A stretch of DNA of 64,000 nt from Azadirachta indica (Eukaryota; Streptophyta; Magnoliopsida; Sapindales; Meliaceae): positions 13,159,744 through 13,223,743 of the forward strand of contig CM040443.1 in the NCBI GenBank assembly GCA_022749755.1. Direction: 5' to 3'. Positions 1,875 through 21,954 of the stretch are shown here, one piece after another. Made by a program: the position numbers and the translations under genes. Under the pieces are notes generated by a model. The model ran no database searches, was not told the origin of the DNA, and saw nothing but the letters and a program-made list of their open reading frames with translations. Numbering within the stretch: position 1 is the first letter of the stretch; each line of letters begins with the position of its first letter.

Positions 1875-4114
1875 ATGAAAGAAATGGGGAAGGGAAAGAC
1901 GAGGTCGTCGTTGGATGATTTGATTGAGAAAGCAGGTGGGTGTGCAGTCATTGATGGAGGCTTTGCAACTCAGCTTGAAAAACACGGGGCTTCTATTAAT
2001 GACCCTCTCTGGAGCGCTCTTTGTTTGATTAGAGATCCCTATCTCATCAAACGGGTGAGTCTATTCTCTTTCTCCGTCCTTTTGTTTCTGCGTTGATTTT
2101 TTGTTGATTCTGGTTAAATATTTTGACTGGTTTTTCAATTGTGCAGGTTCATTTGGAGTATCTGGAGGCTGGTGCTGACATTTTGGTTACTTCATCGTAT
2201 CAGGTCTGTTTATTTTCATTTTTAAATTTATGATTATGATGAACATGATCTTCTATTTCTTAATCTAACCCTTCCTCCGTATCCTTTTTGTCCTGTTTCT
2301 ACAGGCCACTCTACCTGGATTTCTCTCCAGGGGATTGTCCATTGAAGAAGGAGAATCGTTACTAGATAAGAGTGTTAAATTGGCTACTGAAGCGCGAGAT
2401 AAGTTCTGGGATGCTATAAAGAAGGTTCCTGGACACAACTACAACCGAGCTCTGGTTGCAGCTTCAATTGGCAGCTATGGAGCTTACCTTGCTGATGGTT
2501 CTGAGTACAGGTAGCTTCCTACTCTCATTCATCTTCAATATTTAGGTTTGACACAGATACATAAATAAAAATACTCAACTCTCTACTTATACAAATTTCT
2601 TGTATGTAGCCAGTATAATCACATTGTTTGTTTCTTGTTTCTAGTGGAAATTATGGAGCAGCAGTAGATCTTAAAAAGCTGAAAGATTTCCACCGGAGAA
2701 GATTGCAGGTTCTTGTGAAGGCAGGTGCAGATTTGCTTGCTTTTGAAACCATCCCCAATAAACTTGAAGCTCAGGTTTGTACTTGCACAATTATGGTTTG
2801 CATATCTGTTTTGAGTGACTCAATAATATTGTGGACTGTAGTCATAGTATTGAACATTGATAAAGGAATGCCTTTATCAAATCTCTACAACTTTAACAAC
2901 TTTCGATTATTAGTTGCAAGTGATTTATTAATACATAAAGTGTTTATAATCCTCACGTACATTCTCAAGAAATATTTAATGCACAATTCTTGTGATATGT
3001 TGCATTCTTTTGTTGAATGTTTCACTATATTTGCTATTTCCCACACGTTCCTACTTTAATGGACAACACTATCTGAAAATTGGCTTTCTAGTAATCATTT
3101 ACTTCTCTGTTTATGCATCATGCCTAAGATAAATGGAGAATTGTTCTTCCTTAAGCTACATCCTGTACACCCTTGGGGATTCACGTTTCTTCAAAAGAAT
3201 GTACATTTTCCTTCTCCTACTATGCATTCAATGCAGCTTTTTTTTATTCCAACAGCTTAATTCTTTAGTATTTTTAAGATTATTTGGCATGAATCTTTCA
3301 TCTGTTCTGCTTTAGAATTATAACTCACTAAAATTTAACTTTTTCGTTTCATCTTCTGCAAAACCAGATTTGATTCTTTTCTGTTGTTTTTTCCCTCTGA
3401 ATGAAACATTTTCCCCTTTCATTACACCATAAAAATTAATGTTTCTCAACTTACAGGCATGTGTACAGTTGCTCGAGGAAGAAAACGTCCAAATCCCATC
3501 ATGGATCTGCTTCAGCTCTGTGGATGGTGAGAATGCCCCATCAGGAGAGAGTTTTAAGGAGTGCCTTGATATAATCAATGTGAGCAACAGAGTAAAGGTA
3601 GTTGGAATAAATTGTGCACCTCCCCATTTCATTCAAGGTCTCATCTGCAAATTTAAGCAGGTTAGTCATTGCACTAAGATGATTACAACACAATTCTAAC
3701 ACAGAAAATACTATGGCTATCCTTTCTGTAATTCATAGATGTTTGAACTAGAAAACTTCTGGCTTTATTTTTCCGGCTTTCAGCTGACCGACAAGGCAAT
3801 AGCTGTTTATCCCAATAGTGGTGAGGTATGGGATGGCCGAGATAAGAAATGGCTGGTGAGTGTTGAGTTACATTACTATGTGACTATGTTAAGAACTGAA
3901 AGCACAGTGCTACACACAGAAATGCTAGTTCTTTTACCTATTAATGAAGTTTCTTTGATTGGATTGGCAGCCATCGAAGTGCTTTGGTGATGATAAATTT
4001 GAGTTATTCGCAACAAGATGGCGTGATGCAGGAGCTAAACTCATTGGGGGTTGCTGCCGGACAACTCCTTCCACCATTCGAGCCATTTCCAAGGTTTTGA
4101 AAAGAAGGCTATGA
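1875..4114 (+). CDS. HMT: Homocysteine S-methyltransferase (plant HMT), seven exons
   Basis: This enzyme moves a methyl group from S-methylmethionine (or SAM) to homocysteine to give methionine, as part of the cytosolic S-methylmethionine cycle. Exons read as 1875-2054, 2147-2203, 2305-2510, 2645-2774, 3457-3660, 3784-3855 and 3971-4114. All introns start GT and end AG, and the joined frame is 331 codons including TGA, so 330 residues, the usual size for plant HMTs. The N-terminus has the DGGFATQLE motif. The zinc/homocysteine site is visible as GINCAPP near the end of exon 5 and GGCCRT in exon 7, supplying the three expected cysteines. A second ATG lies nine bases after the first; both are in frame. 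There is no obvious transit peptide. Nothing looks broken, so the gene is probably functional. The paralogue class (HMT1, 2 or 3 type) cannot be settled here. The foreign T-DNA begins only about 450 bases downstream. Confidence 0.93.
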
Positions 4115-4564
4115 GTTTTATTTTCTCAAAGAAGGGAACTAAGCTGCTCTTCCCATTTATGAGCAATTGAATTTTGTTTGGTTGCCCACTAATGTTCAAT
4201 GTAGCTCATAGGTGTTCCTATTTCTTAATTATAAGTTTGTTCCTGCAGTATTTGTGTAGCTAATAGACGTTCTTTAATTTAATCTTTTCTCTCTTTTCCA
4301 CTTTTATTTTTTTATTATAAAATGCGTGACAAGAACATTATATTCATCCCTTCTCTGACCAGGTAAGGCAAAGGGCGATTGAGTTGCTCATTAGTCAATT
4401 TAACATTATTGTCATTAAAATTGTTGCTTTTCTTTCTTTTTGGAAAGAAAGGCATGTGTTATGGGTGTCCCTCTAGTTTTGGGGTGTGGAACAATTTGGG
4501 ACTAAATCCTTGCAGCAGAAGTTTCTTATCGATGCTGTGTTGGAACATTATAGTCATTAAGCTT
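4115..4564. other. 3' flank of the HMT gene
   Basis: T-rich plant sequence that should contain the 3' UTR and polyadenylation region of HMT. No other gene is recognisable. The character changes near 4565-4620, where GC content rises sharply; I take this as the approximate plant/T-DNA junction. Confidence 0.4.
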
Positions 4565-4565
4565 G

Positions 4566-4574
4566 TGTGGTGTA
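4566..4574 (+). other. Possible T-DNA left-border remnant
   Basis: The bases TGTGGTGTA match the inner part of the classical nopaline-type left border. They lie where plant-like sequence gives way to GC-richer sequence. The match is only nine bases and may be chance. Confidence 0.2.
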
Positions 4575-4933
4575 GGTAAGCGTCTCCTATCCAAGGGACG
4601 CACAATATGAAGGCAGATCTCAGCCGACACCACGGATTGCCAGGCGACCAACGCTCTGCACGGGTTTAAAGCATCAAGTTGGGACGCTCATCGTTGAATT
4701 TGACCAAAGTCGATGCTTGACACGCCCTTTTTCCATCTAACAATACAATTTATTGGTTTAATAGACATCGCAGATACAAGTACATCGATTACAGTGTACG
4801 TTGCAACAAGAGAAACGGATAATTCCTAAAGCTAGTAAGTTGATTTAATACGTGTCGTATATCAAGGCACAACAATCTATACACAAAAGAAAAAAAAAAA
4901 TCATACATTTGTATGATTAAACGGTCTGCGGAT

Positions 4934-5886
4934 CTAGTTGGTGAGTTCTATTGTGAGCATAATGTTCTCTTTGGTCTCTATAGTGCTCTTCAACATAGCA
5001 GCTCCAATCTCCACAAACTGCACTGTGTATTATGGGAAGACCTCGCCAAGGACAGATGTTTCAATGTCTTCAGTGATTGGCCTATACTGAATTATGACTT
5101 TATTGCCGGTACCCTGGGAGTAGCATATTCTGGCAATGAGAGAGTCGCACTGTCGTTCTCTACTGCGGACTGGGGTAGTGCAGATTAAGGGGGCCTATGC
5201 GTACATAGATTTCCCATTAACGACGGCGTGGTCTTGCAACACGGTGAAGTAAATGACCTAGATAAAGTCCGTAACAAGCTCTTCGTTTTCGTTGACGGCG
5301 AGAAGAGCGATAATTGTTATGTTGAGGGGCTGCCAGGTCAATTCGACCTTGAGGCTAGATTGAACCATTACGCGACGACTGAGATTAACTGTAGGAACAG
5401 CAGTCGGAGAAGGAACATAGCAGAAATCCTTACCGAGACCCTATGGTAAAAAGTGGAAGGACCGAGCGGTAAGGCGGTTGAGATAGGCGAGAAAGGCACG
5501 GATGGCGCCGACAGCCTCCTTGCGGTCATTAGCACGAGGCAAGTGATTCATTAGTGTGACTACAAAAGCTCCCATGTGTGAGAAACCACTGTAACGGAGG
5601 TAATTGGAGTAAGGTTTGTCGAAGTGGTTCGCTTAGATGATGGTTTGCTCTAATGTGAAATTCTCGTCCTCCAAGTTGAAGAGGTGCGGATACCACATAT
5701 GCATGGACATGTCTTGGATTATGCCGTTAGCCAAGTCTTAGGTAGTGTAGTACTGATGTTAATATCGATCTCGAGTTTTTTGGTGCAAAGGGCGCGGATT
5801 TCTGCGGGCTTCATGCTATGAATAGCCTTTGTCGCAGTTGTGATAGCAGTCACCAGGTCACACAAACTGGAATAGGAGTTGGACAT
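4934..5886 (-). pseudogene. mis: Broken mikimopine/cucumopine synthase-like gene
   Basis: On the minus strand a reading frame of about 317 codons starts with ATG at 5886 (MSNSYSSLCDLVTAI...) and ends at a TAG at 4934. One frameshift lies near codon 45-50 (about 5740-5750). Several in-frame stops follow, but the frame otherwise stays coherent to the end. The N-terminal part reads as a small helical domain (for example MKPAEIRALCTKKLEID). The C-terminal part (for example QGTGNKVIIQYRPI) is reminiscent of the cyclophilin-like fold reported for cucumopine synthase. These enzymes join histidine and 2-oxoglutarate to make an opine. I assign the family from remembered mis/cus resemblance, so the identity needs a protein search; the decay is directly visible. 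It lies at the outer end of the left T-DNA arm and has no counterpart in the right arm. Confidence 0.72.
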
Positions 5887-6104
5887 GGTTCTGTAGACTG
5901 CAGTTAGCGCAAGGGAAAGCTTGAATGAAAGAGAATGAACTTCCGAATGAAACTAAGTGATTTGAGATAGGGAGAACGAGTCACTAGCTTATTAAAAGTT
6001 GCTAACGAGATAAGGACGTAACTCCAATGGCTCGTCTTGTAAGCGTGAGGGAGCAAGCATCAGTAGAGGATGCAGAAAGTGAGATGAGTCCAATAGTGGT
6101 CAAT
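5887..6104. other. Upstream region of the mis-like pseudogene
   Basis: Non-coding T-DNA sequence between the mis-like start and the first base at which similarity to the right arm can be seen. It would have held the promoter of the mis-like gene. Confidence 0.4.
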
Positions 6105-6366
6105 GGATATAATGTACATACCCTTTACCAAAACACATGTATATTACGTGCAGGAGGCATTAATTTGGTTCTTGGGTAACCTGTCTCTAGGCTAGAAAAA
6201 GTAACTTTGATTGTATTAAGTATTATTGGCATTTCCATTGAGTTCACGCCACTTGAGTTAATTAATTCTTCTATGTTTGCCTTCGGAAATCTTTACTTTT
6301 CCCATGTTTGGTATGAAAGCGTCTTTCGCATCTTTTTATTCTAATATTGTTCATAACAATTCCTAA
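6105..6366 (+). pseudogene. Unidentified T-DNA coding tail, left-arm copy
   Basis: This stretch is a diverged copy, in opposite orientation, of 16313-16590. The two copies share a frame ending at equivalent TAA codons (6364-6366 here) and many differences fall at third codon positions, so it once encoded the C-terminus of a protein. Shared fragments read LEKV.LIVLSIIGI and FASFY.N.VH. The left copy has one extra base around 6285-6290 and an in-frame stop upstream. I do not recognise the family. It points toward iaaM and ends about 550 bases before the iaaM start. Confidence 0.5.
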
Positions 6367-6378
6367 AACGGAAATACC

Positions 6379-6401
6379 ATATATATATATATATATATAT
6401 T
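6379..6401. repeat. (AT)n microsatellite in the left T-DNA arm
   Basis: A run of about eleven AT units just after the TAA of the coding tail. A matching run lies at the equivalent place in the right arm (16277-16300), so the tract predates divergence of the arms. Confidence 0.9.
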
Positions 6402-7644
6402 AGATTATTTTTCGTAAAGTGTTTTACCGAATATTATTTGTTCTCGTCCCTAATAATTGTAACATTATTGTATCGCTATTCACATCCATATTCATATTTG
6501 TAGACGTGAGTTCTCTATATCTAAATCGAAAATGACATGCCTCAATTGAGTGGGGTAGGCTGGAACTGATGTTACTACTGTCGCCCATATATATTGTATA
6601 AATTATTGGCAATTGTGATACCACAAATATACTCTTTGCCTATTATTTTAATTATTACGCATCATGTGACGATTAATTATTGTTTGTCATGATATTTCAA
6701 GTATTTTTCCTTAATTTCTATTTTCTCTAATGAATGTTAGATTTTGCGCTATCCACTTCTCCATGATGTAGCACATTATGGTTTACTGGATAACGACTTA
6801 TACCGAATTATCAACATATTGGGTCCCATCAAACATTCTCTCAGAGTACATTAACTGTGTTTCGGCTCTCATGGTTTCTTTTTAAAATAAAATTTCTTTA
6901 CCTGCTTGATATCATAGCTCTCCAATAGCAGCTTCGCCCTTGTTTCACCCCTCATAATCTCGCTTCCCTCTGAAATCCAAAAGAGTTGCTTCAAGACCTC
7001 TTTCATGCCCTTGATGATTACACTCAATTCATCAACTAAAAACTGATGCCTTTCTAAAAGAATTGGGTTAAGGTAGCGTTCAATTCCAATATTCGCAATT
7101 TGATCTCCCTAACGCTTAAGAGTATTGCAACGGTAATTTTTTATAAGCCATGCTTTCACTATTCAACACACAAACAATTAGATGTTGCTATCAATTTTAA
7201 TGTGCCAGGGTTCATCTATAAATCTTTCCAAAGTTTGCACTGGATTTTCCTCCAACATTGTATCCCAAAACTAGGTAAGGCGGTTGTTCTTGCCACCGCG
7301 ATTCCACCTTACCGTTTTGATATCTCGCTTCAAGGAATATACTGCATACATAATCTTATTTTGCCAAGCAGACATATGAGCAAATTTGATATCAAATGCT
7401 TCATCGCCATTCTGCCCAGCACATTGTTCTTTGACAGTTGCACATATAAGGCGACTACTTGTAATGGTGAAGAACTAAGTTTTGTTTCTTTTGTAGATCA
7501 GAAATCGCTCCCACCCCGTACAACATTATGGCTGTTAACAGACCTTATGTTATAATCATCCTACTGTCGAACCCGTTCCAAGGAGTTTGTCATCATGTAT
7601 TGATTTACTTTATGATGATCAGGTTTTTCTCCAAGAGAGCAAGG

Positions 7645-8257
7645 TGTCACGCCCTGCGTGAACGGTGCACATGAATAGCGACCGTGGCCGAAACTTGGTG
7701 CGGGAAGTACTTGCACGAGGGAAAATCCAAAACAAGCGGGCGCGTGAGCTTCGGTAAGATGATTCATCAGCTAAACGAATTAAGTGGGCAATGAAATATT
7801 TGGGCCAAAGATCCATGCATTCTTCTTTATTAGCATTGTTGTACATAAAGTTTAATGTTAACTCAACTAGCCCAATTTCTAGAATGGTGGCCCAATTGAC
7901 CCAAATTCTAGAATTGTGTAGATAGCACTACAATTTTGACCATTGCATAGATATTTTCTAGGTCATTGTAGAAGGTCAATCCTATCCCTCAAAAGTGCAT
8001 TGTGAGGTGCAATCTTGGCCATCCATTGTATGTAAACTTTCTTATAAATAGGTGAGACCTCATTTGGGCAAACTAAGTAATCAAGCAATAAACTTGAGTT
8101 GTGTAAGTACTCTTCACTCAAACTCTTTGTGCTCTCTTTTCTCTCTTTATTTAAAAGCTTCCGATTTAGCTCGTTATGGTTGTTGAAGGTTTGCTTAGTG
8201 AGCGGAGTTGTTAAGCGCCGCGCGGTTAAAGCGGGTGAAGAGAATGAGGCCGTGACA
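7645..8257 (+). repeat. 5' LTR of the chromovirus
   Basis: Begins TGTCACG and ends CGTGACA, giving the expected TG..CA ends as part of a short inverted repeat. A TATA-like CTTATAAATAGG lies near 8041-8052, followed by the likely transcript start region. Aligns along its length with 12953-13567. Confidence 0.92.
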
Positions 8258-8275
8258 GTTGATATTAGAGCTCAA
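8258..8275 (+). other. Primer-binding site, tRNA-Met type, decayed
   Basis: The bases right after the 5' LTR (TTGATATTAGAGCTC) resemble the tRNA-iMet primer site TGGTATCAGAGC with transition-type changes. Confidence 0.6.
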
Positions 8276-8353
8276 GGTTGAGCAACACAAGGTTGAGCAA
8301 CACAAGATTGAGCAGATACCTTGTTGAGAAGGATCTTTCGAAACAAAAGTTAC

Positions 8354-9580
8354 ATGGAGGGAAACTCTATCGAAAAGAATGGCCAACGTTTCCGATGTTA
8401 CCATTGTAGGTGAGAAGGCCTAAGTGCAGTGACGTGAGGAGCAATGTCCTAACAAGAGTGGAAGCAAGAGGGCGCAGTCCAAGGATATGGTGGCTGGCTT
8501 GCATACTCGAGTAGCTAGCGTGGAAGCTTTCGTGGCAAGCGTAGACTCACGCCTTGACGAGATGGAGCAGCGCTTCGATGGGTTGGAAGCGGAAAACAAT
8601 GCTCTTCGTGAGGTAGTAGAGGTGTCTACTGCCAAACTCGAGGACGCCTTCAAGCAAAAGTTGCTGACAGTTCACGACCGTATGTTTAGGGACATCCGAG
8701 CCTACATCGATCGGAAACTTACCATAATTAAGGAGGATGTGACTTTGTGCAAGCGTGCAGCAGTAAGTGGGGTGACTACCACACGTGAAGCACCAAGAGT
8801 CAATGTCCCCAAACCCAAGACCTATAATGGTTCGAGGAGCGTCAAGGACGTGGACAACTTCTTGTGGGGAATCGAACAATATGTCGAAGTGATGGGCATC
8901 ATCGATGAGCAAACGAAGTACGTACCGCCACCTATTATCTAACCGATGTGGCTATGTTGTGGTGGAGAATAAGGCACAGTGACATTGATAAAAGGACATG
9001 TACCATCGAAACCTTCGATGACTTCAAGCCGAAACTCAAGCGGCAATTCTATCCGTAAAATGTTGAAGAGGAAGCACGAGGCTGGTTACGACGCCTCAAA
9101 CAATCCGATAGCTTGCGGGACTACATCAAGGAGTTTACTAGCTTGGTGTTAGAGATTTCGGACATGAGCGACAAGGATTCGCTCTTTTTCTTCATGAATG
9201 GGCTCCAAGGATGGGCAAAGACGAATCTTAAGAGACGAAGCGTGCAAGATCTTGCAACCGCCATAACCGTTGCAGAAACTCTTACCGATTATTTAAGTGA
9301 GCGATCAAATACCAAGGCCAAGAACAAGAAGGGTGGCTTAGGTAAAGGTAGGGGAGATCATGGCAAATCGCAAGAAGACGATTTTCGCAAACAACCTAAT
9401 GGCAAAGAGAAGCTGAAGAATGACAAAGAGAAGGATTCCAAACCTTTTCGAAATTGCTACTTTTGCGATGGTTCTCATTGGATGTGGGATTGTCCAAAGA
9501 GAAAGGCATTGAGCGCCATGGTGGCTCGTGCGGAGAAACCACAAAGTCGAGAGGGTGACGCCGCGATGGGTTCTTTGTAA
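8354..9580 (+). pseudogene. Chromovirus gag remnant
   Basis: Structural Gag polyprotein of the retrotransposon, in two main open pieces at 8487-8942 and 9113-9580 separated by stops. The first piece includes a region predicted to be coiled coil and heptad-rich (DSRLDEMEQRFDGLEAEN). The second has the capsid-like stretch YIKEFTSLVLEI, then a basic linker and a zinc knuckle CYFCDGSHWMWDC (CX2CX3HX4C) near 9460-9492, the nucleic-acid-binding motif of plant gypsy Gag. Confidence 0.85.
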
Positions 9581-9589
9581 CTACTCAAT

Positions 9590-12500
9590 GCCATTCGAGC
9601 AGTTCTGGAGACACAAGCAAAGGTGCTTATCTACGATGATGTGGTGATCAACAAGGTACGTACGCAAGCCTTAGTTGATACCAGTGTCTCACACAATTTT
9701 GTACAGGTTGACGAGGCCAAATGGTTAGGTCTCAAGGTGACAACAAAGGCGGCACTATAAAGACAGTGAATTCGGTTACTAAACCAATTAAGGTGTAGCG
9801 CAGAAGGTCGAAACCACCATCAGAGAATCGAGAGGACCGGTAGATTGGTCGGTAGTACTTATGGACGATCACAAAATTACGCTTGAGATGGATTTCTTTC
9901 ATCAAATAAAGGTCGTACCGATACCATTTGCCAACACCATGTGCATCCTTGATGGAGGCAAGACGTGCATGGTTTCGATATCAAGATCAAGTAAGGTGGA
10001 GACTAAGACGCTCCCGGCCATGCAATTCAAGAAAGGTTTGAAGCGCAAGAGTCAAAAAAGTTACCTTGCCTTCTTAAAAGAATATGACAATGATGACAAC
10101 GCGGAGGTGAGCCATAGGGATGTTCTGAAAGAGGTAGATAACGTCCTCAAAGAGTTTAAAGATGTAATGCTTGAAGAATTGCCCAAAAAACCTGTATCAA
10201 GGAGGGAGGTGGATCACAAAATCAAATTGGAATCGGGCACCAAACCTCCCGCCATGAGTCCATACCGGCACGCTCCACCGGAGTTGCAAGAGTTGAAAAA
10301 GTATCTCTAAGATTTACTTGATGCGGGCTGCATTCGACCATTTAAGGCACTATTCGGCACTCCAGTTTTGTTCCAAAAGAAGAAGGATGGGACGCTACGG
10401 ATGTGCATCAACTATCGGGCACTTAATAAGGTCACTATCAAAAACAAGTATCCAATTCCACTCATTGCCGATCTTTTTGATCAACTTGGGAAAGCACGAT
10501 ACTTCTCTAAACTTAATTTAAGATTGGGTTACTATCAAGTACACATAGCGAAGAGAGATGAGCCAAAAACAACATGCGTAATAAGGTACGGTTCTTACAA
10601 ATTTTTAGTCATGCCTTTCAGAATAACAAATGCACCGGCTACTTTTAGCACTTTGATAAATAAGTTATTCCATCCCTATCTCGATCAATTTGTGGTGCTA
10701 TACTTGGATGATATTGTTGTATATAGCAACACCTTGGAAGAACACGTAGCACATCTTAGGAAGGTGTTCCAAGTATTGCGAAAGAATGAGCTATACGTAA
10801 AAAAGGAGAAATGCTCTTTTACACAACGAGAAGTTCATTTCTTGGGCCATAAGATCAAGGATGGAACATTGATGAAGGATAAGGTTAAGGTGCAAGCTAT
10901 TCAAGAATGGGAACCTCCGACCAAGGTACACGACCTCCAATCTTTCTTGAGGTTGGTTAACTACTACCAACCCCTCATCAAGAGCTATTCGGCAAGAGCA
11001 ACTCCACTAACTAACCTATTAAAGAAAAGTCGCTAGTGAGATTAGACCGAGGAATGCCAACAAGCCTTCGAAGACTTGAAGAACGCAATCATGGAGAAGA
11101 CAGTTCCTGTGTTGCCCGATCACACAAAACCTTTCGAAGTACACACCGATGCCTCAAATTTTTCCACTAGGGGAGTACTTATGCAAGAAGGACGTCCCAT
11201 CGCTTTTAAGAGTCGTAAGCTCAATGAGGCGGAAAGGCGCTACATCGTGCAAGAAAAGGAGATGACGGCAATCATCTATTGCCTTAATGTATAGCGACAC
11301 TACTTGCTCGGGAGTCATTTCGTGGGTATGACGGATAATGTAGCTACTAGCTACTTTCAAACGCAAAAGAAGTTAAGTCCAAAGCAAGCTCGTTGGCAGG
11401 ACTTCTTGACAGAATTCGACTATGACTTAGCATACAAGCCGGGTAAAACAAATGTTATAGCGGATGCGTTAAGTCGAAAGGCGACATTGGCGACCATTAA
11501 CCTAAGTATTTTTGAGGGAAAGCTAATAGGGAGGATCAAAGAAGGATTGACCTAAGACCCTCTAACCAAGAACATAGTGGTGCTCGTAAACGAGGGGAAG
11601 ACAAGGCGTTTTGGCTTGACGATGGATTGCTCTATGCCAAAGGGAGACGAATTTTTATGCCAAAGTGGGGTGGCTTGAGGAAAGAACTTATCAAGGAATG
11701 TGGACACCCCGAAACTAAGCGCACCAACGCTTTGTTAGAAAATTTATACTATTGGCCAAGGATGCGAGAGATATCGAGGCTTACGTGCGGACATGTCTTG
11801 TGTGCCAACAAGATAAAATTGAGCAACAAGCATCCGGTGAGTTGCTTGAGCCATTACTAATTCCAAACAAGTCATGGGAAAACGTTTTCATGGATTTCAT
11901 CACGTCACTACCGAAATCGGAAGGGTATAGAACTATCATTGTGGTGGTGGATCACTTTAGTAAATACGCAGTTTTTATACCGGTACCTACGGATTGCACA
12001 GTGGAGGAAGTCGCAAAATTGTTCCTAAAGCATGTGGTGAAGCTTTGGGGAGTGCCGAATAATATTATAAGTGATCACAACCCACGTTTATCGGCAAGTT
12101 TTGGTCCGAGTTGTTCAAGTTACTTGGAATGAACCTTAATTTTTCTAAAAGCTTTCATCCTCAAAGTGACGGACAAACCAAGCGTGTCAATGCACTGCTT
12201 TAGTTATACTTGAGGCACTATGTGACTGTCAACCAAAGGGATTGGGCTAAGTTACTAGATGTGGCTCAATTCTCTTATAACTTGCAGCGGAGTAAGGTGA
12301 CTAATAGAAGTTCGTTCGAGACTGTGTTGGGCCGACAACCGACGACTCCACATACATTAGCCTCGAGTTATGATGGGAAAAGTCCGGGAACCTTCAAGTT
12401 CGTCAAGGGCATTCCTAGATAAGGCGGCTAAGAAGATGAAGAAGTGGGCAAACAATAAGCGAAGAGACGTGGAGTTCCAAGAGGGCAACCTAATCATGGT

Positions 12501-12900
12501 GAAACTCTTACCCCAACAATTCAAGACATTGCGCAAATTACACAAGGGATTGGTTCGATGTTACGAGGGGCCATTTCCGATCGTAAAGAAAGTGGTCAAG
12601 GTATCATACCGAGTTCTTCTTCCTCCAAAATTGAAGATCCACCCTATTTTCCACGTAAGCATGTTAAAGTCTTATTATGGAGATGAGGAAGACCCAAGCC
12701 GAAGGGAGTCAAAACGGGCTCCAACTGCTGTGATAACCTCTTTCGAGAAGGAGATTGAGTGTATCCTTGGAGATCGACGAGTTCAAAAACGGGGGTTTCA
12801 AACTATACGAAATACTTCATCAAGTGGAAGAAATTACCTGAAAGCGAGGCTACATGAGAGCATGAAGATGCACTATGGCAATTCCAAGAGTATATAAGGA
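9590..12900 (+). pseudogene. Chromovirus pol remnant with chromodomain
   Basis: Order of domains: aspartic protease at about 9630-9760, with ALVDTSVSHNFV where DTG is expected, so the active glycine is lost; reverse transcriptase 10200-11036 with YLDDIVVYS near 10700; RNase H from about 11076 (VHTDASNF) to 11500; integrase from about 11630 with the zinc-finger cysteines CLVCQQDK near 11780-11800 and the core FMDFITSLPK; then a C-terminal chromodomain remnant about 12790-12900, readable after a frameshift as TKYFIKWKKLPESEAT with Trp changed to stop. Stops and frameshifts split every domain. The terminal chromodomain places the element among plant chromoviruses. Confidence 0.88.
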
Positions 12901-12939
12901 GGTTCCATTAGAAAGACGCGACGAGGATGTCGCGCATTT

Positions 12940-12952
12940 AGGTGGGGGAGAA
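12940..12952 (+). other. Polypurine tract of the chromovirus
   Basis: AGGTGGGGGAGAA immediately precedes the 3' LTR and fits the plus-strand priming site. Confidence 0.75.
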
Positions 12953-13567
12953 TGTCACGCCCTGTGTGAACAGTACGTATGAATAGTGACCATGGTCGAG
13001 ATTTGGTGTGGGAAGCACTTACGCAAGGGAAAATTTGGAACAAGCGAGCACGTGAGCTTCAGTAAGATGATTCATCGGTAGAATGGATTAAGTGGGTAAT
13101 GAAGCATTTGAGCCAAAGATCCATGTATTCTTACTTATTATCATTGTTGTACATAAAACTCAATGTTAGCACAACTAGGCCAACTTCTAGAATGGTGGCC
13201 CAATTGGCCAAGTTCTAAAATTGTGTAGATAGCACTACAATTTTGACCATTGCATAGATATTTTCTAGGTTATTCTAGAAGAGATCAATCCTAACCCTCG
13301 CAAGTGTATTGTGAGGTGCAATTTTGGCCGTCCATTGTATGTATACTTTTTTATAAATAGGTGAGACCTCATTTAGCCAAACCAAGCAATCAAGCAATAA
13401 ACTTGAGTTGTAGAAAGTGCTCTTCACTCAAACTCTTTGTGCTCTCTCTTTTCTCTTTATTTAAAAGTTTCCGATTTAGCGCGTTGTGATTGTCGAAGGC
13501 TTGCTTAGTGAATGAAGTTGCTAAGCGTCGCAAGGTTAAAGCGGGTGAAAAGAGTGAGGCCGTGACA
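12953..13567 (+). repeat. 3' LTR of the chromovirus
   Basis: Begins TGTCACG and ends CGTGACA. It aligns with 7645-8257, with many transition-type differences and small indels. iaaM sequence resumes directly after it. Confidence 0.92.
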
Positions 13568-14135
13568 GAGGTCTATGGTAGCATGGGTTATTATCTTGAA
13601 AACGTCCCGCTACCTAAAGTCACGATTATAAGGGCTGGCATGGCAGGCCTTATAGCAATTATGAAACTTTTGCGTGCTGGCATCAAAGATGTTACTTTTT
13701 TTGAACCGCGTGATCAGATCGAGAATAAACTATGATCTCATGGGGTTAATTCTAAATATCCATGCCTCTTTATTGAGGTCCACGTGATGTGATTTTTTGT
13801 GATTCATACGTGTTTTTTCCATTATCTAGACAAATTTAAGATACCTACCGAAACATCTTTTCGGATGCCAAACGTTGTTGAGACTGTGCTATATTTTTGG
13901 GGTGCACATCATATATGGCTCGTGAGACAATCGCCACCGCCATTATTCTGCCACCTGTACAAAGGATGGCAGGCACTACTGAATAACGGTTGCAAATACA
14001 ATGGTATGATCCTTGCAGCGCTAGTGGAAATAAAGTCCATGCTGAAAAACATTTTGATGAAGCGTGCCTGACGTGGTAGGTTTAGTTAAAGGCATTTGGT
14101 CACCTTTCTTTGTATTCTACCTTGGTAGAAATCTT
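13568..14135 (+). repeat. Left arm of the T-DNA inverted repeat, inner part
   Basis: Reverse-complement match to about 14490-15030. Similarity stops inside a GTAGAAATCTTCA segment near 14125-14140, where the sequence switches to the opposite-strand tail of the right iaaM copy. This is the centre of the inverted repeat. Confidence 0.85.
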
Positions 14136-14140
14136 CAAAA

Positions 14141-15744
14141 AGTTTCCACTGGGCGCTAGTGGTAACAATTGCGATGTCAAAAATAATGACTTCAATTTTT
14201 TCGCTTTTTTTGCGTATATGGCTTACAACGTCAAAGCAGAGGTGCCCGCTCAGCTTGATGTTTCAGATCTCCTGATTTCTTAGCTGCTTAGATAGAGTTG
14301 ATATACCGAAAATAATTAGGCGCTGATCATTTTGATAGCCGTTAATTACCGACCATAAAATCTCGAAAAAGCCGACATGTTCTAAACTTGAAGATCCACT
14401 TGAACTGATTCCCAACATGCTGAAGTGCTCAAAGTCATCGAGTTTTTTCCATGGTTTACCTCTAAGCAGACTGGTACTAGTGAAAATTTCTACCAACGCA
14501 GAATCAAAAGAAAGATAACCAAATGTCTTTAACCTAACCTGCCACGCAAGGCATGCTTCGTCAAAACATTGTACTTTTAGCACGGACCTAATTTACATTG
14601 GTGTTGTAAGGATCATGCCACTATGTTTGCAGCCGTTATTCAATAATGCCTACCATCTTTCGTACATTTGACGGAATAATGGCGATGGCGATTGTCACGC
14701 GAGCTATAGGTGACGTGTACCTCCAAAACATAACACAGTCTCAATAACACTTGGTGTCATGAAAGATATTTTGGTGGGTATCTTAAATTTATCTGGAGAG
14801 TGTAAAAGACACGTCTGACTCACAAGAAATCGCATCGAAAATGAGACCATAACTTATTTTCGATCTGATCATGTAGCTCAAAAAGAGTAATATATATCTT
14901 TGATGCCAGTATGCAAAAGTTTTGTCGCTGCTATAAAGCTTGCCAAGCTAGCCCCTATTATCGTGACTTTGGACAGGAGGACGTTTTTAGGATAATATCC
15001 AATGCTACCATAAGCCTCGCTCTCCTGGAGAAAGACCTGATAATCATAAAGCAAATCAATACATGATGACAAACTCCCCGGAACAGGTGCGGCGGTAGGT
15101 TCATCATAAAATAGGGTCTATCCAACAACCACGATGTCATATGGGATAGGAGCGGTTGCGTATCTGCAAAGGAAACGATAATTTAATTTTTCACCATTAC
15201 AAGCAGTGGCCTTGTTTGTGCAGCTCTCAAAGAACAATGTGATGGGCAGAATGACGACGAAGCATTTGATATTAGATTTGCTCGTATGTCTGCTTAGAAA
15301 AGCAAGATTATATACGTGACACATTTCTTGGAGTGAGATGTTAGAATGGTAAGTTGTAATCACGGTGACGAGAACAGCCCCATTATTTAGTTTTGGGATA
15401 CAACGCTAGAGGAAAATTCACTGTAAGCTTTGAAAAGATATATGGATGAACGCTGGCACATTAAAATTGAGAACATCTAATTGGTCGTGTATCGAAGAGT
15501 GGAAGCAAGGCCAGTAAAAAATTACCGTTACGATATTCTTAAAGGTTAAGGAGGTCAAATTGCAACTATTGGAATAGAACGCTGCCTCAACCTAATTCTT
15601 CTGGAATGGCATCAGCTTTTGGCTAATATATTGAGTATAATCATTGAGGGCATGAAAGAGGCTTTGAAGCAACTCTTCTGGATTTTGGAAAGAGGTGAGA
15701 TCATGAGGGGTGAAATAAGGGCGAAGGTGTGATTGGAGAGTCAT
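14141..15744 (-). pseudogene. iaaM: Right-arm iaaM/orf8-like gene, 5' two-thirds
   Basis: On the minus strand a frame starts with ATG at 15744 and runs about 530 codons before being cut at the inverted-repeat centre; Agrobacterium IaaM is about 750 residues, so the C-terminal part is missing. The RolB-like region (15118-15363: SNISLQEMCHVYNLAFLS, then NIKCFVVILPI and PYDIVVVG) is followed by IDLLYDYQVF and the dinucleotide-binding strand KVTIIGASLASFIA, where the second and third glycines of GxGxxG are lost. Further on, KKLDDFEHFSMLGI and VINGYQNDQRL match the monooxygenase body. Stops and frameshifts are present in all parts. The gene would be transcribed toward the centre, converging on the left copy. 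Confidence 0.9.
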
Positions 15745-16276
15745 GATATCAAGCAAGTAAAGGAAACTTACCTAAAATTGGTAAACAGCAACTCATTTGA
15801 AAAGAAATTAAGGGAGCCGAAAGACAGTTAATGTATTCTGGGAAAATGTTTGATGGGACCCGATATGTAGATGGTTCAGTATAGGTCGTTATTCTGTAAG
15901 CCATAATATGCTACATCATTGAAAAGTGGATCGCGTAAAGTTTGAAATTCATTAGAGAAAATGGAAATTGAGGAAAAATATAGGAAATATCATATAAAAC
16001 GATAACTATTCGTCATATGATGTGTAATAATTAAAATAATAATCGAAGAGCATATTTGTGATATTACAATCGCCAACAATGTATACAATATATATGGGCG
16101 ACAGTAATAGCATCAATTCCAGCTTGCCCTACTCAATTGAGGCATTTCATTTGAGGTTTAGACGTAGAGAACTCATATCCACAAATATGAGTGTGGATGT
16201 GAACAGCGATACAGTATTGCTATAATTATTAGGGACGAAAACGAATAATATTCGGTGGATCACTTTGTGAAAAATA
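15745..16276. promoter_or_regulatory. Presumed iaaM upstream region, right arm
   Basis: Non-coding sequence upstream of the iaaM start, conserved with 6402-6913 of the left arm. Its position between the iaaM start and the upstream gene tail makes it the likely former promoter. No defined element can be assigned with confidence. Confidence 0.45.
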
Positions 16277-16300
16277 ATATATATATATATATATATATAT
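16277..16300. repeat. (AT)n microsatellite in the right T-DNA arm
   Basis: Counterpart of 6379-6401, at the same place relative to the coding tail. Confidence 0.9.
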
Positions 16301-16312
16301 GATATTTTCGCT

Positions 16313-16590
16313 TTAAGAAGTGCTATGCACAAGATTATAATAAAAAGATGCAAAAGGTGCTTTTAGACCAAGCATGGGGAAAGTAAAGATTCCAAAAGGC
16401 AGACAACCAGCATAGTTTGTACAGGGATTGATTGACTTGAGTGGCGTGAACCCAGCATAGATGCCAATAATGCTCAGTACGATCAAAATTACTTTTTCTA
16501 GCGTAGAGATAGGTTGCTCGAGAAGCAGATTAGTGCCTCTTGCATGCAACATAAATGGTTTGTAGCAAGGGGGTATGTACATTATATTTG
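16313..16590 (-). pseudogene. Unidentified T-DNA coding tail, right-arm copy
   Basis: A minus-strand frame ends with TAA at 16313-16315 and matches 6105-6366. It is open for more than 60 codons and is hydrophobic in places (LEKVILIVLSIIGIYAGF). Third-position differences between the copies suggest past coding constraint. The open frame continues upstream to 16738, but the left arm no longer matches there, so that part may be unrelated. Family unknown. Confidence 0.5.
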
Positions 16591-16961
16591 TTAGCTGTAA
16601 TATATCGTTCCCTTTGAACTGTAATTGTATTACATATAAATAATAAATTGTATATAGATTTGTAGAAATATCAGTGATAATATTGAAAAGCTTCGCCCAT
16701 GACGCAGGAATATCGTATACTATATCAGTGTGTGACATGTACGTTTATTATAGAGAAACACTCATACCACGCATGCCTAAAGATAAATTACTACCGCTGT
16801 ATGTGCATAACGTTGATGCTTACGTCACATCAGATGGGATGTACCTTAACTAGTATCTTTTACCCACGTAATGCAGGCATCTCAACCTGAACGCTCTGCT
16901 TAAATAAGGAAGGATATCTTCTCTTTGATGCAAATTTCTTCAAATAGCTGCAAGTTTCCTG

Positions 16962-17643
16962 ATGTCGAAATATGACAGAAGAGTTATGCTCCCAATTTCA
17001 GAAACTCGATTTTTAGGGAAAAAAAAGCAGGTCAAATTAGAAGGAGATTTTAAGGTTACTTTAAGCAAATATCGTAACTTTCTTGCTGAGTGGTCATCAT
17101 CCGACGATCAAATAGACATTGGTAAAGAATGCATTAAGCGAAATGGTGGACTGCTTTACCTGTATATGGATTGGCCCACAATGGCAAAGTGTTTGGAACA
17201 AAATTGCCTCATTTCCAATAACAAGGGTGGTGGCATAAGAGCAACTTTGTTGCCACTGTATTTGGAAGATGTGATTGGCAGTGAGGTGCTGTGATCAATT
17301 ATTCAAACCCTGTGCACAACACCTACTTCGCTACCTTTTGTCCAAGCGATCACTTCTAAAACATAGGTTAGGTGAGGGTGTTCACCATCAACAACGATTC
17401 TTTGGTGTTCGACGTCTACACTCTCGCGCACCAAGCGCAGGACTTAGGACTATACCATTTCAATTATGATATTATGGCCTTTGGGGAATGCCTGTTCCAT
17501 GCGTAAGAGTGATTGTATCGTAGCTGCATGAGCAACTTTTCAAAGAGCTTAATAGGACATTTTGTTGCTGGTATTGCTGGTACTTCAATGCAGACCTAGT
17601 CTTTTGGGATAGGCATATTGTGGCTATTGGTTATGAAGCTTAA
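16962..17643 (+). pseudogene. Broken RolB/RolC-family (plast) gene
   Basis: Plast genes (rolB, rolC, orf13, orf14, 5, 6a, 6b and others) alter plant growth and are known from Agrobacterium T-DNA. The frame starts with ATG at 16962 (MSKYDRRVM). The diagnostic stretch GGLLYLYMDWPTMAKCL near residue 62-78 matches the GLLYLY.D.PT signature of RolC-type proteins. After a frameshift at about 17285 it continues as NPVHNTYFATF, then NNDSLVFDVYTLAHQAQDLG. After another it reads VRVIVS, stop, LHEQLFKELNRTFCC and ends with TAA at 17641-17643. At least two frameshifts and two stops are needed, so the gene is dead. Total length of about 225 codons fits the family. It is transcribed away from iaaM. The exact member cannot be fixed; rolC or orf14 type is my guess. 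Confidence 0.78.
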
Positions 17644-17750
17644 AAAGTGTGTGTTGTTTGACGGAATAAAAGATACTTGTTATTACTGGTGTTCGTGTTC
17701 TTAATTAATAGAAAATGAAGTTCTAATATTCTTGTTTTACTTTTTTAAAA

Positions 17751-17966
17751 ATGCTTTTTACGCAATTTAAAATGAAAGTCATGCTTGGTATTACAATAAT
17801 AATAGTCATGATCATTGAAAAATGGTATTGCGAAGTAAGATTAACATGTATTCATGGCGAGCATCTTTTGGAGAAGTTTATGCCCGACTTCATTCGTCAA
17901 AGCAGGGAGACTAATACTGGCTGTCTGAGCTATACTTTTTATAGGGAAAGTGATGTTTTGCCTTGA
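17751..17966 (+). CDS. Small open frame, possible ABM-type monooxygenase domain piece
   Basis: An open frame of 71 codons reads EVRLTCIHGEHLLEKFMPDF followed by IRQSRETNTGCLSYTFYRE. The spacing of GEHLLEKF and GCLSYTFYR recalls the antibiotic-biosynthesis monooxygenase (ABM) fold. The preceding part is hydrophobic and may be fortuitous. The frame closes just after the motif, so it would be a fragment. I do not know of such a gene on T-DNA, and the match is from memory only. It could be chance. Confidence 0.25.
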   Translation: MLFTQFKMKVMLGITIIIVMIIEKWYCEVRLTCIHGEHLLEKFMPDFIRQSRETNTGCLSYTFYRESDVLP

Positions 17967-18682
17967 AGGCAAAGATCGGTTCGATGGCAGCGGTGATCAC
18001 CCGAGGTAGGCCGTTGGGTTCGTAGGACCCATTTCCACAAACGCCAAAGTGGAGGAAATAGTCACATAATGACAGCAATAATTGCAATAATAGTGGAATA
18101 ATGTCTGGTTATTCACCTTATAGATAATATATATATAGAATTGTGTTTTTTATATTATTATGTCGTTAGGAACATTGGAAGAAAGAATAAATTAAAACGG
18201 GCAAAAAAGTCACTTAAGGAACACGTGTGGCAAAGTAATGATTCTAAAAGACGGACAGCCTACCACAAATAATGTGGATCTTATCTGTCCCAACTAGTCT
18301 CAATCCCCGCCGTCAATTTTCTTGGTATAATCAAGTTATTCTTCCCAGTCAAGAGGTAGGTCGATCGGAATGTAGATATCAGGATATGGTTTTCTAGACC
18401 GCCATTGCAATATTATATGTCAAGAGTTCCAATTACCTTAATTTTTACTATTGATTTCCGATGGTCATATCAGATGGAATGCACTCAAGCAAAGTGTTCA
18501 GTTTTTTACGGGAAGACGTAAGTGTATCACAATTTAAAATGGGTCTATGTGTTTATAACTGTAATAATTAAAGGATTGACCATTTAACAGTGCTAAAAGT
18601 AACCTTGTGTTTAAATAGAAAAGCTTTACACATATGAATTTAATCATTTTAGTCTCGCACCTTCTAACTCGCGATCCTTGCG
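17967..18682. other. T-DNA spacer without recognised gene
   Basis: Mixed-composition sequence between the plast side and the next minus-strand pseudogene. No coherent frame was seen on either strand. It may contain an internal T-DNA rearrangement point. Confidence 0.4.
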
Positions 18683-19944
18683 TTATAGCAACATTTTTGG
18701 GCAGCGGTAGGTTTCGGTTTTGACCAAAGCGTTTAAGTTGACTATGAAATGGTCACAAATGACGAAGTCAAAATATCTATTATCAGCTAGTCTCAAGTAT
18801 TGGCATGGAATCGTGCGAAGTTCCTGTGAATAGGATGCTGCGTCGGTCTCCCAAGGCTCTAGATAACTTGTGTATAAATTATAATAATAATAAACGCCAT
18901 GATAGATATAGGAGGGACTAGTGCAAATGCCAATAATTGGTACAAAAAGCCAGACTTCTTGTATCCAATCCATAAGACTTAAAAGAACAAGATCCCAAAG
19001 GTATATAGCCTTGATATCAGGATCCGTCACCTCATGGCCATCGAGATTATGGGTCTTTCTACTGCTTAAGTCATAGTTCTCGCCGATACCGCATGCTAAC
19101 AAACCAACTACGAAGATTTTCAATTGGGCATCAAATATTGAGAATAACTATTCTTGGCCCACTCTTAATAAGCGGCCGTAATCGTCTGAACTGGTAGGAG
19201 CTCTCGCCAGCCTGGGAAGTTGGTTTGGGTTGAGAATCAGTATCAACAGAACGATGTCTTTCCATTCAAAAGTGACGCCCTCATTCTCTGTGAGTTCGAT
19301 GAACTCAGCTGCATTCCGAAAGACGTGCAGGTAGAACTGAATAACTAAATTTTGAGAAAGCTAAGGTGGTGGCTTAAAAACGCCGTTGTACGAGCGCCAT
19401 CCTGATTTGGGGCATTGACAAAGAGGATTACCTCAGAATTGGCTCGAAGGAGGGTGGTAATGACATCAATCAGTTTCATGACATGTTGGTCGGTAAGGAC
19501 GTAGTTGGTTGTGAAAACACATCCTCTGACATTTGGTATGATGTATCGTAGACATTCACGATCATCTTCGGGGTTAATTTCCAACATGTACCCTTGGATG
19601 AAGGTTTGCCTATCTTCGGGCAGATCGTGAAATACGTATGACACGTCGTTCATGAAAAGGACATCGAACTCAACATTGTTGCCAAGCCTTAAGGCTTCAA
19701 GAAGAGCGGTAGTTGAGCCATCGGAACCGCGCGAAAGTTGTAAGGTATGCCACAATGAGCAATGAGTTGCTTCCACCTAGGGTGGTATTTAATAAGGCGT
19801 TGGGCTTGCTGAACATCGCGCAAGCTTGGTCGACAACTGCCTAAGGACAGTTATCGCCTTAGCTAGGATCAACTCATCATTGACGTTCAGCCAAACATTT
19901 TCGGCGAGAGTAATGGTAGCAGTGGGGGACACGTCTTAAGCCAT
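18683..19944 (-). pseudogene. Unidentified broken T-DNA gene of about 420 codons
   Basis: On the minus strand an ATG at 19944 begins a frame with a stop at codon 3. After short frame disturbances near 19790-19830, a long clean piece follows (19345-19776), including FDVLFMNDVSYVFHDLPED and VRGCVFTTNYVLTDQHVMKL. A frameshift near 19345 joins a second piece (LVIQFYLHVFRNAAEFIEL), and after one stop near 19145 a third clean piece runs to TAA at 18683 (18683-19123, with IKAIYLWDLVLLSLMDWIQE). The overall coherence argues for one former gene without introns. Codon use and GC content resemble the mis-like gene more than the plant flank. I do not recognise the family; T-DNA genes of this size include opine-related synthases and Ri-plasmid ORFs. 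It forms the right end of the T-DNA block. Confidence 0.6.
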
Positions 19945-20399
19945 TTTGAAGTTTTAGTGAGAACTGTGCAGTGCTGAGTGACAACGAGAAGAGGGGCGCT
20001 AGAGAAGTCATCTATATTTTAGAAACTGTTTGATTAGGTGTATTTAATCAAGTTTTGCATTTTGTGTAATGTTTTTTTTTATGGTATTAGCAATATGATG
20101 TATTGTTATAAGTAATTTGACAAAAATAATTATAAATTTAACGTTATAATGCCATGTTAAAAATGAGATTTTTCTCCATTACTTGCTTCTGCGCAACTTA
20201 CTCCTCATTGGCCTTCTTCGCAAATTCAAATGCTCTTCTATAGATATTTCTAGGTGTAAATTATATTTCACAGAAAGAAAAAAAGATTCATCATGTATAG
20301 TAGTAATCCTAGTACGAGTTTTTTCATATAGTAAATCAAGCATGGAAAGGAGTATAACTCAAATTAAAACTGACATTGAAGAACCTAGCTAGATAAAGG
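19945..20399. other. Right T-DNA end and AT-rich plant flank
   Basis: GC content falls at about 20030, taken as the approximate right junction. No border repeat was recognised. Beyond it is AT-rich sequence without a credible gene. Confidence 0.4.
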
Positions 20400-20935
20400 T
20401 CCAATTCCAAACCTGGCTTTAGCAAGCTCTTTGCGCATCCCATCTATATCAGCCTTAATGGCAGTTAATTGCTTATTTTCAGCTTGCATTCAATTAATAT
20501 TCTTTGTCAGACCTTTGATTTGAGTAGTCAATTCTTGTCACGAGCTATTCAATTTCTGAACATCAGCTCTCAGCTTCACAACCTCTGCCCTCAGAGGCTC
20601 AGAGGCATGATGCTCAGCTTCTAGCTTTAGGCCTCTATTAATCAACTCCCTAACCTGTGCCTTTTTGTCAGCACGAAGTTTTGGTATGATTTGCCCCAAC
20701 CTATGTATCTCATCCTTCGCAACTGTTAGTTCCATTTGCAAATGTGTATTATCATCAATAACATGCCGATTCTCAGAAATAATTCCATGAATCTCTCTAT
20801 ATTGTATTTCAAGTTCCTCTTCTAAAGCTGCTGAGTGGAAGGCATGGATGCTGGACCTCGGTTCAAAACAGAGTGACCATCATGGAAACCTCGAACACTG
20901 TCTGAATGACGTGGTATATGATTTCTACTAGCCAT
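20400..20935 (-). pseudogene. FLX-like (FLC EXPRESSOR family) gene fragment, broken
   Basis: FLX proteins are plant coiled-coil proteins linked to FRIGIDA-dependent flowering control. The minus-strand frame starts ATGGCTAGTAG at 20935 (MASRNHIPRHSDSVRGFHDG), shifts frame near 20825, then reads ENRHVIDDNTHLQMELTVAK and RGLKLEAEHHASEPLRAEVV, the heptad-rich core of the family. Two in-frame TGA codons (about 20536 and 20488) replace arginine codons, and similarity ends near 20400, before the rest of the coiled coil. An upstream TTTCTGCAG just before the start resembles the acceptor of a 5' UTR intron, so this looks like a truncated genomic copy. Confidence 0.82.
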
Positions 20936-21954
20936 ATGATCCTGCAGAAACAAGGCCGTGCTCATGCAAAGTTGAGACACTATTTTTATATGGTACAAAT
21001 GGGCCACGGTCAGACTGTGAAATATGAACCTCAATCTAAATGATAGCAATCTTAGCATACTAACTGATGGAAGTTACTTAAATTTCCTACAATCCCCAAG
21101 GCTATTTAAAATATGTTAGAACTGTTGTGCTTTATCTTAACTTCGCAAACACAATAGTTGTTTTTGGTAGACACATACTTTTCTTTGGTAACTAATATTT
21201 GCTACTCACTTGTATAGTTATATTTGACAACCAGTAATTCTCTGTCACAGCAATAGCGAATTAAAAATCACAATAACTTAATCCCAAACATTCCCTTAAA
21301 TTCACTTGTAATAATTACTTCCTATTTATACAGCTTAACTTTGATCCAAAACAAAAGTCCAGATCCACTATTCATCATGAAAACTTACGGTTAGATTATA
21401 GATGAGATTTTATTAGATAACTTCACTTGTAGAACCTTACAATTTTCCCTCAAAGAAAGAACCAATCGTTTACTTAGTTTCCAAGAATATAGTATGCTAA
21501 ACTTAACCAACTTGACAAAGGAAAAAAAGAATATAGTAATCAATCACCTCAATACCAAATGAAACCTTAAAACAAAGCAAACATTAGCTAATGATTTGCT
21601 TCACCTCCTTATCTCTATAATATCTTATCAATAGCATAAACTGCAAGTATGCATGTCTAACTAAATTACTTAATACAAACTAGAAAAATAACATCATCAA
21701 AAATTTCACCAATTATCAAAGGTATTATGAAATATAAATTAAATTTGCAAAAACATAAATGCAAAATACAGTACATCCACTAAAATAGAAAGGGCTAAGA
21801 ATGAGGAGTCGCGTTATTTGTTATGCAATAAAGAATAATAACTTATAAAGATGAGCCTACCGTGGTTCAAAGTGAAATAGAGTCGCTGGTCTTCAATAGA
21901 AACAGTTTTAATTTTGTACGGCTTAAAGCGTTAAGTAGAGTGAGGTGAGCGTAC
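20936..21954. other. AT-rich intergenic sequence
   Basis: No gene or element recognised. The first part may include former intron or leader sequence of the FLX-like fragment. Confidence 0.4.

Follow-up and report, generated by a model that had tools for sequence, protein, structure and literature searches.

Among the cellular T-DNAs (cT-DNAs, where T-DNA stands for transferred DNA) closest to the locus described here, those of Nicotiana tomentosiformis (TC) and Linaria vulgaris carry repeats that diverge by 5.8% and 8.5%, respectively, and no known cT-DNA repeat exceeded 10% divergence according to the passages available of Chen and Otten 2017 (PMC5606197). In the case of Camellia, the accessible text of a 2025 review gives repeat divergences of 0.05–10%, and an age of 7.5 million years (My) for the oldest insert there (PMC12568777). 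Here we report on a 64,000-nucleotide stretch of Azadirachta indica DNA (assembly GCA_022749755.1, contig CM040443.1), referred to as the window, in which an insert between a plant homocysteine S-methyltransferase (HMT) gene and a decayed plant gene is almost certainly a cT-DNA derived from Agrobacterium. The insert is built around an inverted repeat whose arms differ at 18.9% of aligned sites, about twice the highest repeat divergence that we found in the literature, where a more diverged case may exist. The kind of locus is known; its age and gene set are unusual. In our estimate the chances are about even that no cT-DNA repeat seen before is as diverged as this one, and probably none as old, and that it was left by a mixed acs-rolC-orf8-cus transfer at least 8–17 My ago.

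Results

The window was cut into stop-to-stop pieces of at least 22 amino acids (aa; n=1,756), which were searched against 12 Agrobacterium/Rhizobium loci. Matches at E≤1e-3 were obtained for 24 of the 1,756 pieces, all inside 4844–19776 and none outside, with 14 of them on the gene strand and 10 being opposite-strand shadows; E-values in this search are per piece, with one to two chance matches expected per window. No vir gene was found among the 24 best matches, the 12 loci containing few of them. In a second test, which used 24 profiles from T-DNA loci and E-values scaled to all 1,756 pieces, 10 of the 24 profiles matched at E≤1e-3, every match falling within 5033–19776, while the remaining 14, including the orf2-, orf3n-, iaaH-, ipt- and nos-type profiles, had no match among the 1,756 pieces at that threshold. 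The family labels of these profiles are in part what we take them to be, as the records often read "RolB family" or "hypothetical". The features of the insert are the following.

4565–4936: left edge of the foreign DNA, approximate, where guanine-plus-cytosine (GC) content rises from 34.3% (4113–4564) to 41.3% (4565–4930)
4937–5886, minus strand: cucumopine-synthase-family (cus) pseudogene, nearly full length, in at least six open pieces, located by Cus profile matches
6107–7644, plus strand: left arm of the repeat, part 1, with a spacer and the 5' part (RolB-like domain) of orf8/iaaM copy 1; 79.4% identity to 16587–15015
7645–13567, plus strand: Ty3/gypsy-type long terminal repeat (LTR) retrotransposon inside orf8/iaaM copy 1; LTRs at 7645–8258 and 12953–13567
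13568–14145, plus strand: left arm, part 2, the middle of orf8/iaaM copy 1 (residues ~240–428), cut at the central junction
14148–15771, minus strand: orf8/iaaM copy 2, N-terminal part, residues 1 to ~497, perhaps 547; 12 stops in 540 codons
14481–16587, minus strand: right arm of the inverted repeat
16313–16744, minus strand: 141-aa open frame that precedes orf8 copy 2 and reaches into the repeat with its 3' part
16962–17503, plus strand: broken RolB/RolC-family gene, nearest rolC, located by profile matches; remnants may reach 17643
17644–18680: interval of about 1 kb, from the rolC-like gene to the acs-like gene, in which no gene was identified
18686–19943, minus strand: tentative agrocinopine-synthase-like (acs) pseudogene, the part at 19151–19776 being supported by the acs profile

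The two orf8/iaaM copies are the arms of an imperfect inverted repeat, in which 6107–7644 and 13574–14137 pair with 16587–15015 and 15012–14481. Neither this repeat nor the splitting of one of its arms by the retrotransposon had been noticed in the initial annotation, made from the sequence of the window, which had placed iaaM/orf8-like remnants at 14141–15744 on the minus strand. These remnants are indeed there, as six pieces of copy 2 that follow one another, with gaps, along orf8/iaaM residues 1–497; the piece at 15421–15591 is weak (E 0.002), and the extension of the copy below 14262 depends on a weak match (E 0.064). Copy 1, on the plus strand at about 6914–7644 and 13568–14145, covers residues ~47–180, 240–290, 317–397 and, weakly, 412–428. 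Matches to the orf8/iaaM profile were seen at 7058–7552 and 13490–14068 (plus) and at 14266–15405 (minus), with a best E of 1.1e-22. The 5' domains of both copies pass the cut-off of 23 bits for RolB_RolC (PF02027), scoring 49.1 bits at 7058–7552 and 29.1 bits at 15121–15405, and the amine oxidase part (PF01593) at 13793–14068 reaches 18.3 bits, under the cut-off of 19.8, in a region where the orf8/iaaM profile gives E 3.4e-21. Such a layout, RolB-like followed by amine oxidase, fits orf8/iaaM. The copies meet at ~14145/14148 inside the gene, so that about the last third is missing from copy 2, and more from copy 1, and no piece of the missing 3' part was found elsewhere in the window by the profile and 12-locus searches. 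Outside the repeat the two sides differ, with cus on the left and, on the right, the 141-aa frame together with the rolC-like and acs-like genes. A scan of genome contigs for a closer orf8 donor returned five loci (two of Rhizobium sp., three of R. rhizogenes), none of them clearly nearer.

Of 2,056 aligned sites, 389 differ between the arms, which corresponds to a Jukes-Cantor (JC) distance of 0.218 (standard error, s.e., 0.012), through 297 transitions and 92 transversions. When counted by codon position in the frame of copy 2, the differences amount to 76/365, 69/362 and 70/364 (chi-square p 0.80), and divergence does not differ between coding and noncoding (upstream) arm DNA (p 0.18). In a bacterial control, the orf8 genes of pRi1724 and pRiA4, the corresponding counts are 69, 66 and 126 of 544; an excess at third positions such as this is the pattern given by selection, and the third-position share is 126/261 in the bacterial pair vs 70/215 in the arms (z ~3.5). 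Because the differences between the arms are even over codon positions, they point to neutral decay in the plant, and the simplest reading of these sequences would be that the T-DNA arrived with like arms, which then decayed there unconstrained. As for the 12 stops of copy 2, an in-frame comparison with copy 1 was possible for seven, none of which is common to both copies; three more were flagged as common, but at out-of-register positions, and the remaining two are not comparable.

On the clock of the Camellia review, which may not run at the host's own rate, the arms would be ~17 My old, while a rate of 1.3e-8 gives 8.4 My for the arms and 5.5 My for the LTRs, and slower, tree-like rates give 27 My (4e-9) or 54.5 My (2e-9) for the arms. 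Gene conversion between the arms would make these ages too low. The retrotransposon, whose domains follow the order reverse transcriptase (RVT_1), RNase H, integrase, is bounded by a target repeat of 4 bp, the two copies of which (AAGG and GAGG) mismatch at one base; the uninterrupted arm reads GAGG. Its LTRs diverge by JC 0.144 (s.e. 0.017), less than the arms (z ~3.7), which means that the element inserted later, as its position demands. The argument of the initial annotation, that a plant retrotransposon inside the T-DNA makes the transfer old, is therefore borne out by the expected order of the two divergences.

In the case of cus, an opine-synthase-like remnant had been proposed at 4934–5886 on the minus strand, and five pieces there, collinear with Cus proteins (residues ~1–43, 49–79, 87–149, 150–212 and 231–286), agree with it. 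The Cus profile matches five pieces within 5033–5952 at E≤1e-3 (best 3.8e-22, 2.6e-20 and 8.5e-12) and a sixth at 4937–5029 with E 0.0014; identity to the plasmid loci of A. vitis CG957 and A. cucumeris is 58–63% for the two best pieces and 43–55% for two others. The earlier claim that the gene set of the insert is known only from T-DNA was too strong for this opine gene, as the Cus family is on record in other bacteria as well as in a fern and in fungi. Among the sources given by name are Saponaria, Gypsophila, Cinchona, the fern Ceratopteris and the mushroom Mycena, of which the last two would be unusual unless due to contamination. The A. vitis CG957 plasmid also has a second Cus homologue (33384–34331 of its locus), which lies among histidine-use and transporter genes and stands apart from the RolB-family/opine gene cluster.

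The rolC-like remnant, previously placed at 16962–17643 on the plus strand, was recovered with a RolB/RolC profile of eight T-DNA members (16929–17291, E 6.5e-13; 17372–17503, E 7.4e-5), and its best match is rolC of pRi1724, with 37.7% identity over 77 aa. The acs profile matched two of the 1,756 pieces at E≤0.5, namely 19348–19776 (E 4.7e-5) and 19151–19360 (E 9.3e-5), both on the minus strand, adjoining and in order along acs. Solved structures gave chance-level rows only for the acs-like piece (E 0.7 and worse), and NCBIfam gave no match for ten pieces of the insert. The 141-aa frame at 16313–16744 had no match in Pfam, NCBIfam or plasmids and is possibly a so far unknown T-DNA gene.

The plant DNA of the window (1–4112 and 21001–64000) has a GC content of 31–32%, and the insert is higher in places, with 46.5% at 4931–5952 and 43.7% at 18681–19945. 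The flanking genes are the following.

1875–4114, plus strand: plant homocysteine S-methyltransferase (HMT-1 type), left flank; seven exons, 330 aa, intact
20388–20940, minus strand: decayed coiled-coil plant gene, right flank; translation with internal stops

The HMT gene, which the initial annotation had recognized beside the insert, has an open frame and six introns, all GT-AG, and its relatives are plant proteins of up to 88% identity; among the best 120 of 6,080, the closest with a name include those of Xanthoceras (87%), of Acer, Citrus and Vitis (86%), of Carya (85%) and of Pistacia (84%). The gene groups with Acer, Xanthoceras, Pistacia and Citrus in a tree of 67 rows, with a support of 92 in the Shimodaira-Hasegawa-like approximate likelihood ratio test (SH-aLRT), and a tree of 24 rows gives the same Sapindales grouping (support 85/85, not starred). 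In approximately unbiased (AU) tests on the 24 rows, placement with Pistacia (p 0.157), with the Citrus group (0.072), with Acer-Xanthoceras (0.072) or outside the Sapindales group (p 0.137) was in no case rejected. Boswellia sacra is a member of Sapindales as well. This species appears in a table of naturally transgenic plants, in the part of that source available (PMC12256950). The right-flank gene, with weak Pfam matches to coiled-coil families only, is presumably FLX-like. Further along, at 38018–39291 on the plus strand, lies the remnant of a Mutator-like element (MULE) with MULE transposase and SWIM domains.

Discussion

The initial annotation had seen in this region an ancient Agrobacterium T-DNA in a plant chromosome, with all genes broken, and our results support both points: T-DNA-type genes lie inside plant DNA, they are arranged around a partial inverted repeat, and every T-DNA gene of the insert is broken. 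The donor would be of the R. rhizogenes-like Agrobacterium type, with a T-DNA that carried acs-like, rolC-like, orf8/iaaM and cus-type genes.

We acknowledge that a number of results weigh against this view. No T-DNA border repeat was found, the best site scoring 12 of 16 informative bases, a value reached by most shuffles, whereas in four T-DNA loci the two best sites of each locus reach 14–16. Border remnants are, however, often lost in cT-DNAs and hence not a required trait (the partial inverted repeat being usual, not universal), and the cT-DNAs on record "seem to be truncated" in the words of the source passage (PMC5606197). A DNA-level plasmid search with 4000–7650 and 13570–20100 gave no match. 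At the protein level, Cucumopine_C (PF18631) reaches 18.4 bits in one 63-aa piece, under its cut-off of 27, and three further cus pieces have no Cucumopine_C match in Pfam; the rolC-like piece at 16962–17291 scores 17.5 bits for RolB_RolC, also under the cut-off. Scores of this sort, in the rolC-like, Cus and amine-oxidase pieces alike, are what is expected of short decayed pieces. The acs-like gene is weak in a plasmid-wide search, where one piece gave E 0.1 and two others had no match; in the case of the former, 15 of 15 records are annotated as agrocinopine synthase or its phosphodiesterase family. Lastly, the cus tree is unsettled, as three pieces entered as separate rows land in three places (one in the T-DNA Cus clade, one beside plant Cinchona and one among other bacterial Cus relatives), and the alignment of the pRi1724 gene located at the mis position was poor; this tree is too shaky for naming a donor.

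Other explanations have to be considered together with these results. It is unlikely that the arms represent two T-DNAs already diverged in bacteria, which would deprive the repeat divergence of any dating value. Agrobacteria can carry two T-DNAs, an example being TL and TR of pRiA4 in the passages available (PMC12568777), and the sequences just outside the repeat do differ, cus being on the left and the rolC-like and acs-like genes on the right. Nevertheless, the arm substitutions are flat over codon positions, unlike those between pRi1724 and pRiA4, and none of the seven right-arm stops open to an in-frame comparison recurs in the left arm.

That the sequence represents bacterial contamination or an artificial join in the assembly, instead of an insertion, is very improbable. 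The junctions are those of the assembly, but all genes of the insert are broken, a plant LTR element with its target repeat sits in one of the copies, and CpG is depleted, with an observed/expected ratio of 0.80–0.85 in the insert vs 0.98–1.03 in four bacterial T-DNAs and 0.54–0.62 in the plant flanks. That these are plant genes merely resembling T-DNA genes could draw on the Cus-family proteins of other bacteria, a fern and fungi, but we find it hardly credible in view of RolB/RolC-family, orf8/iaaM and cus-type genes standing together around an inverted repeat, and of a RolB-like plus amine-oxidase layout as in orf8/iaaM.

If the insert is a cT-DNA, as we conclude, an Agrobacterium would have infected an ancestor of the plant and its T-DNA would have entered by the usual route, with two truncated copies joined tail to tail within orf8/iaaM and placed downstream of HMT, and a fertile plant would have arisen from the transformed cell. 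The sequence itself shows the gene content, the inverted repeat with its neutral decay, the later insertion of the retrotransposon and the breakage of every gene. Because both orf8/iaaM copies end at the junction, a whole IaaM/Orf8 enzyme would never have been made here, provided that the junction is original. An initial function is conceivable for the RolB-like 5' parts, the rolC-like gene and the opine genes, and in the source passage a RolB-like 5' part alone is reported as active (PMC5606197). Nothing in our results points to present activity, and the locus has most likely become a silent fossil.

The insert may be among the oldest natural gene transfers of this kind. If this is true, its age could be tens of My in the case of a slow-evolving tree as host, and the same insertion should be common to several related genera. 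Chen and Otten 2017 in effect asked, in the passages available, whether older inserts never happened or were lost (PMC5606197), and a neutrally decayed repeat with 18.9% divergence and a younger nested retrotransposon would mean that older inserts do survive. As the locus adjoins a conserved gene, the transfer could be dated independently in related species. In the initial annotation the locus next to HMT was considered as one that may be undescribed; among the papers available to us, none combines "cT-DNA" and "homocysteine S-methyltransferase".

As far as the available passages of the sources allow a comparison, TC of N. tomentosiformis resembles this locus in that a central, partial inverted repeat is flanked by single-copy genes that differ from one end to the other, but its repeat is far less diverged (5.8% vs 18.9%), and the ends carry ocl and gene c, where here we see cus on one side and the rolC-like and acs-like genes on the other (PMC5606197). 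The cT-DNA of L. vulgaris likewise brings together acs, orf8, rolC and an opine gene, mis; it differs in its partial direct repeat, of 8.5% divergence, where here we see an inverted repeat, the cus family and a different gene order (PMC5606197). CaTA of Camellia section Thea shares the breakage of all genes, an acs-like gene, inverted repeats and repeat-based dating (PMC9763466, PMC12568777), but it is 5.5 kb long, with acs-susL-rolB and repeats that are 90% identical (PMC9763466), and dates to 7.5 My on the corrected clock (PMC12568777). The cus-like cT-DNA of Arachis also has a Cus-family gene from Agrobacterium; unlike the gene described here, Cus is intact in most Arachis species, and the passages available on it mention neither orf8 nor rol genes.

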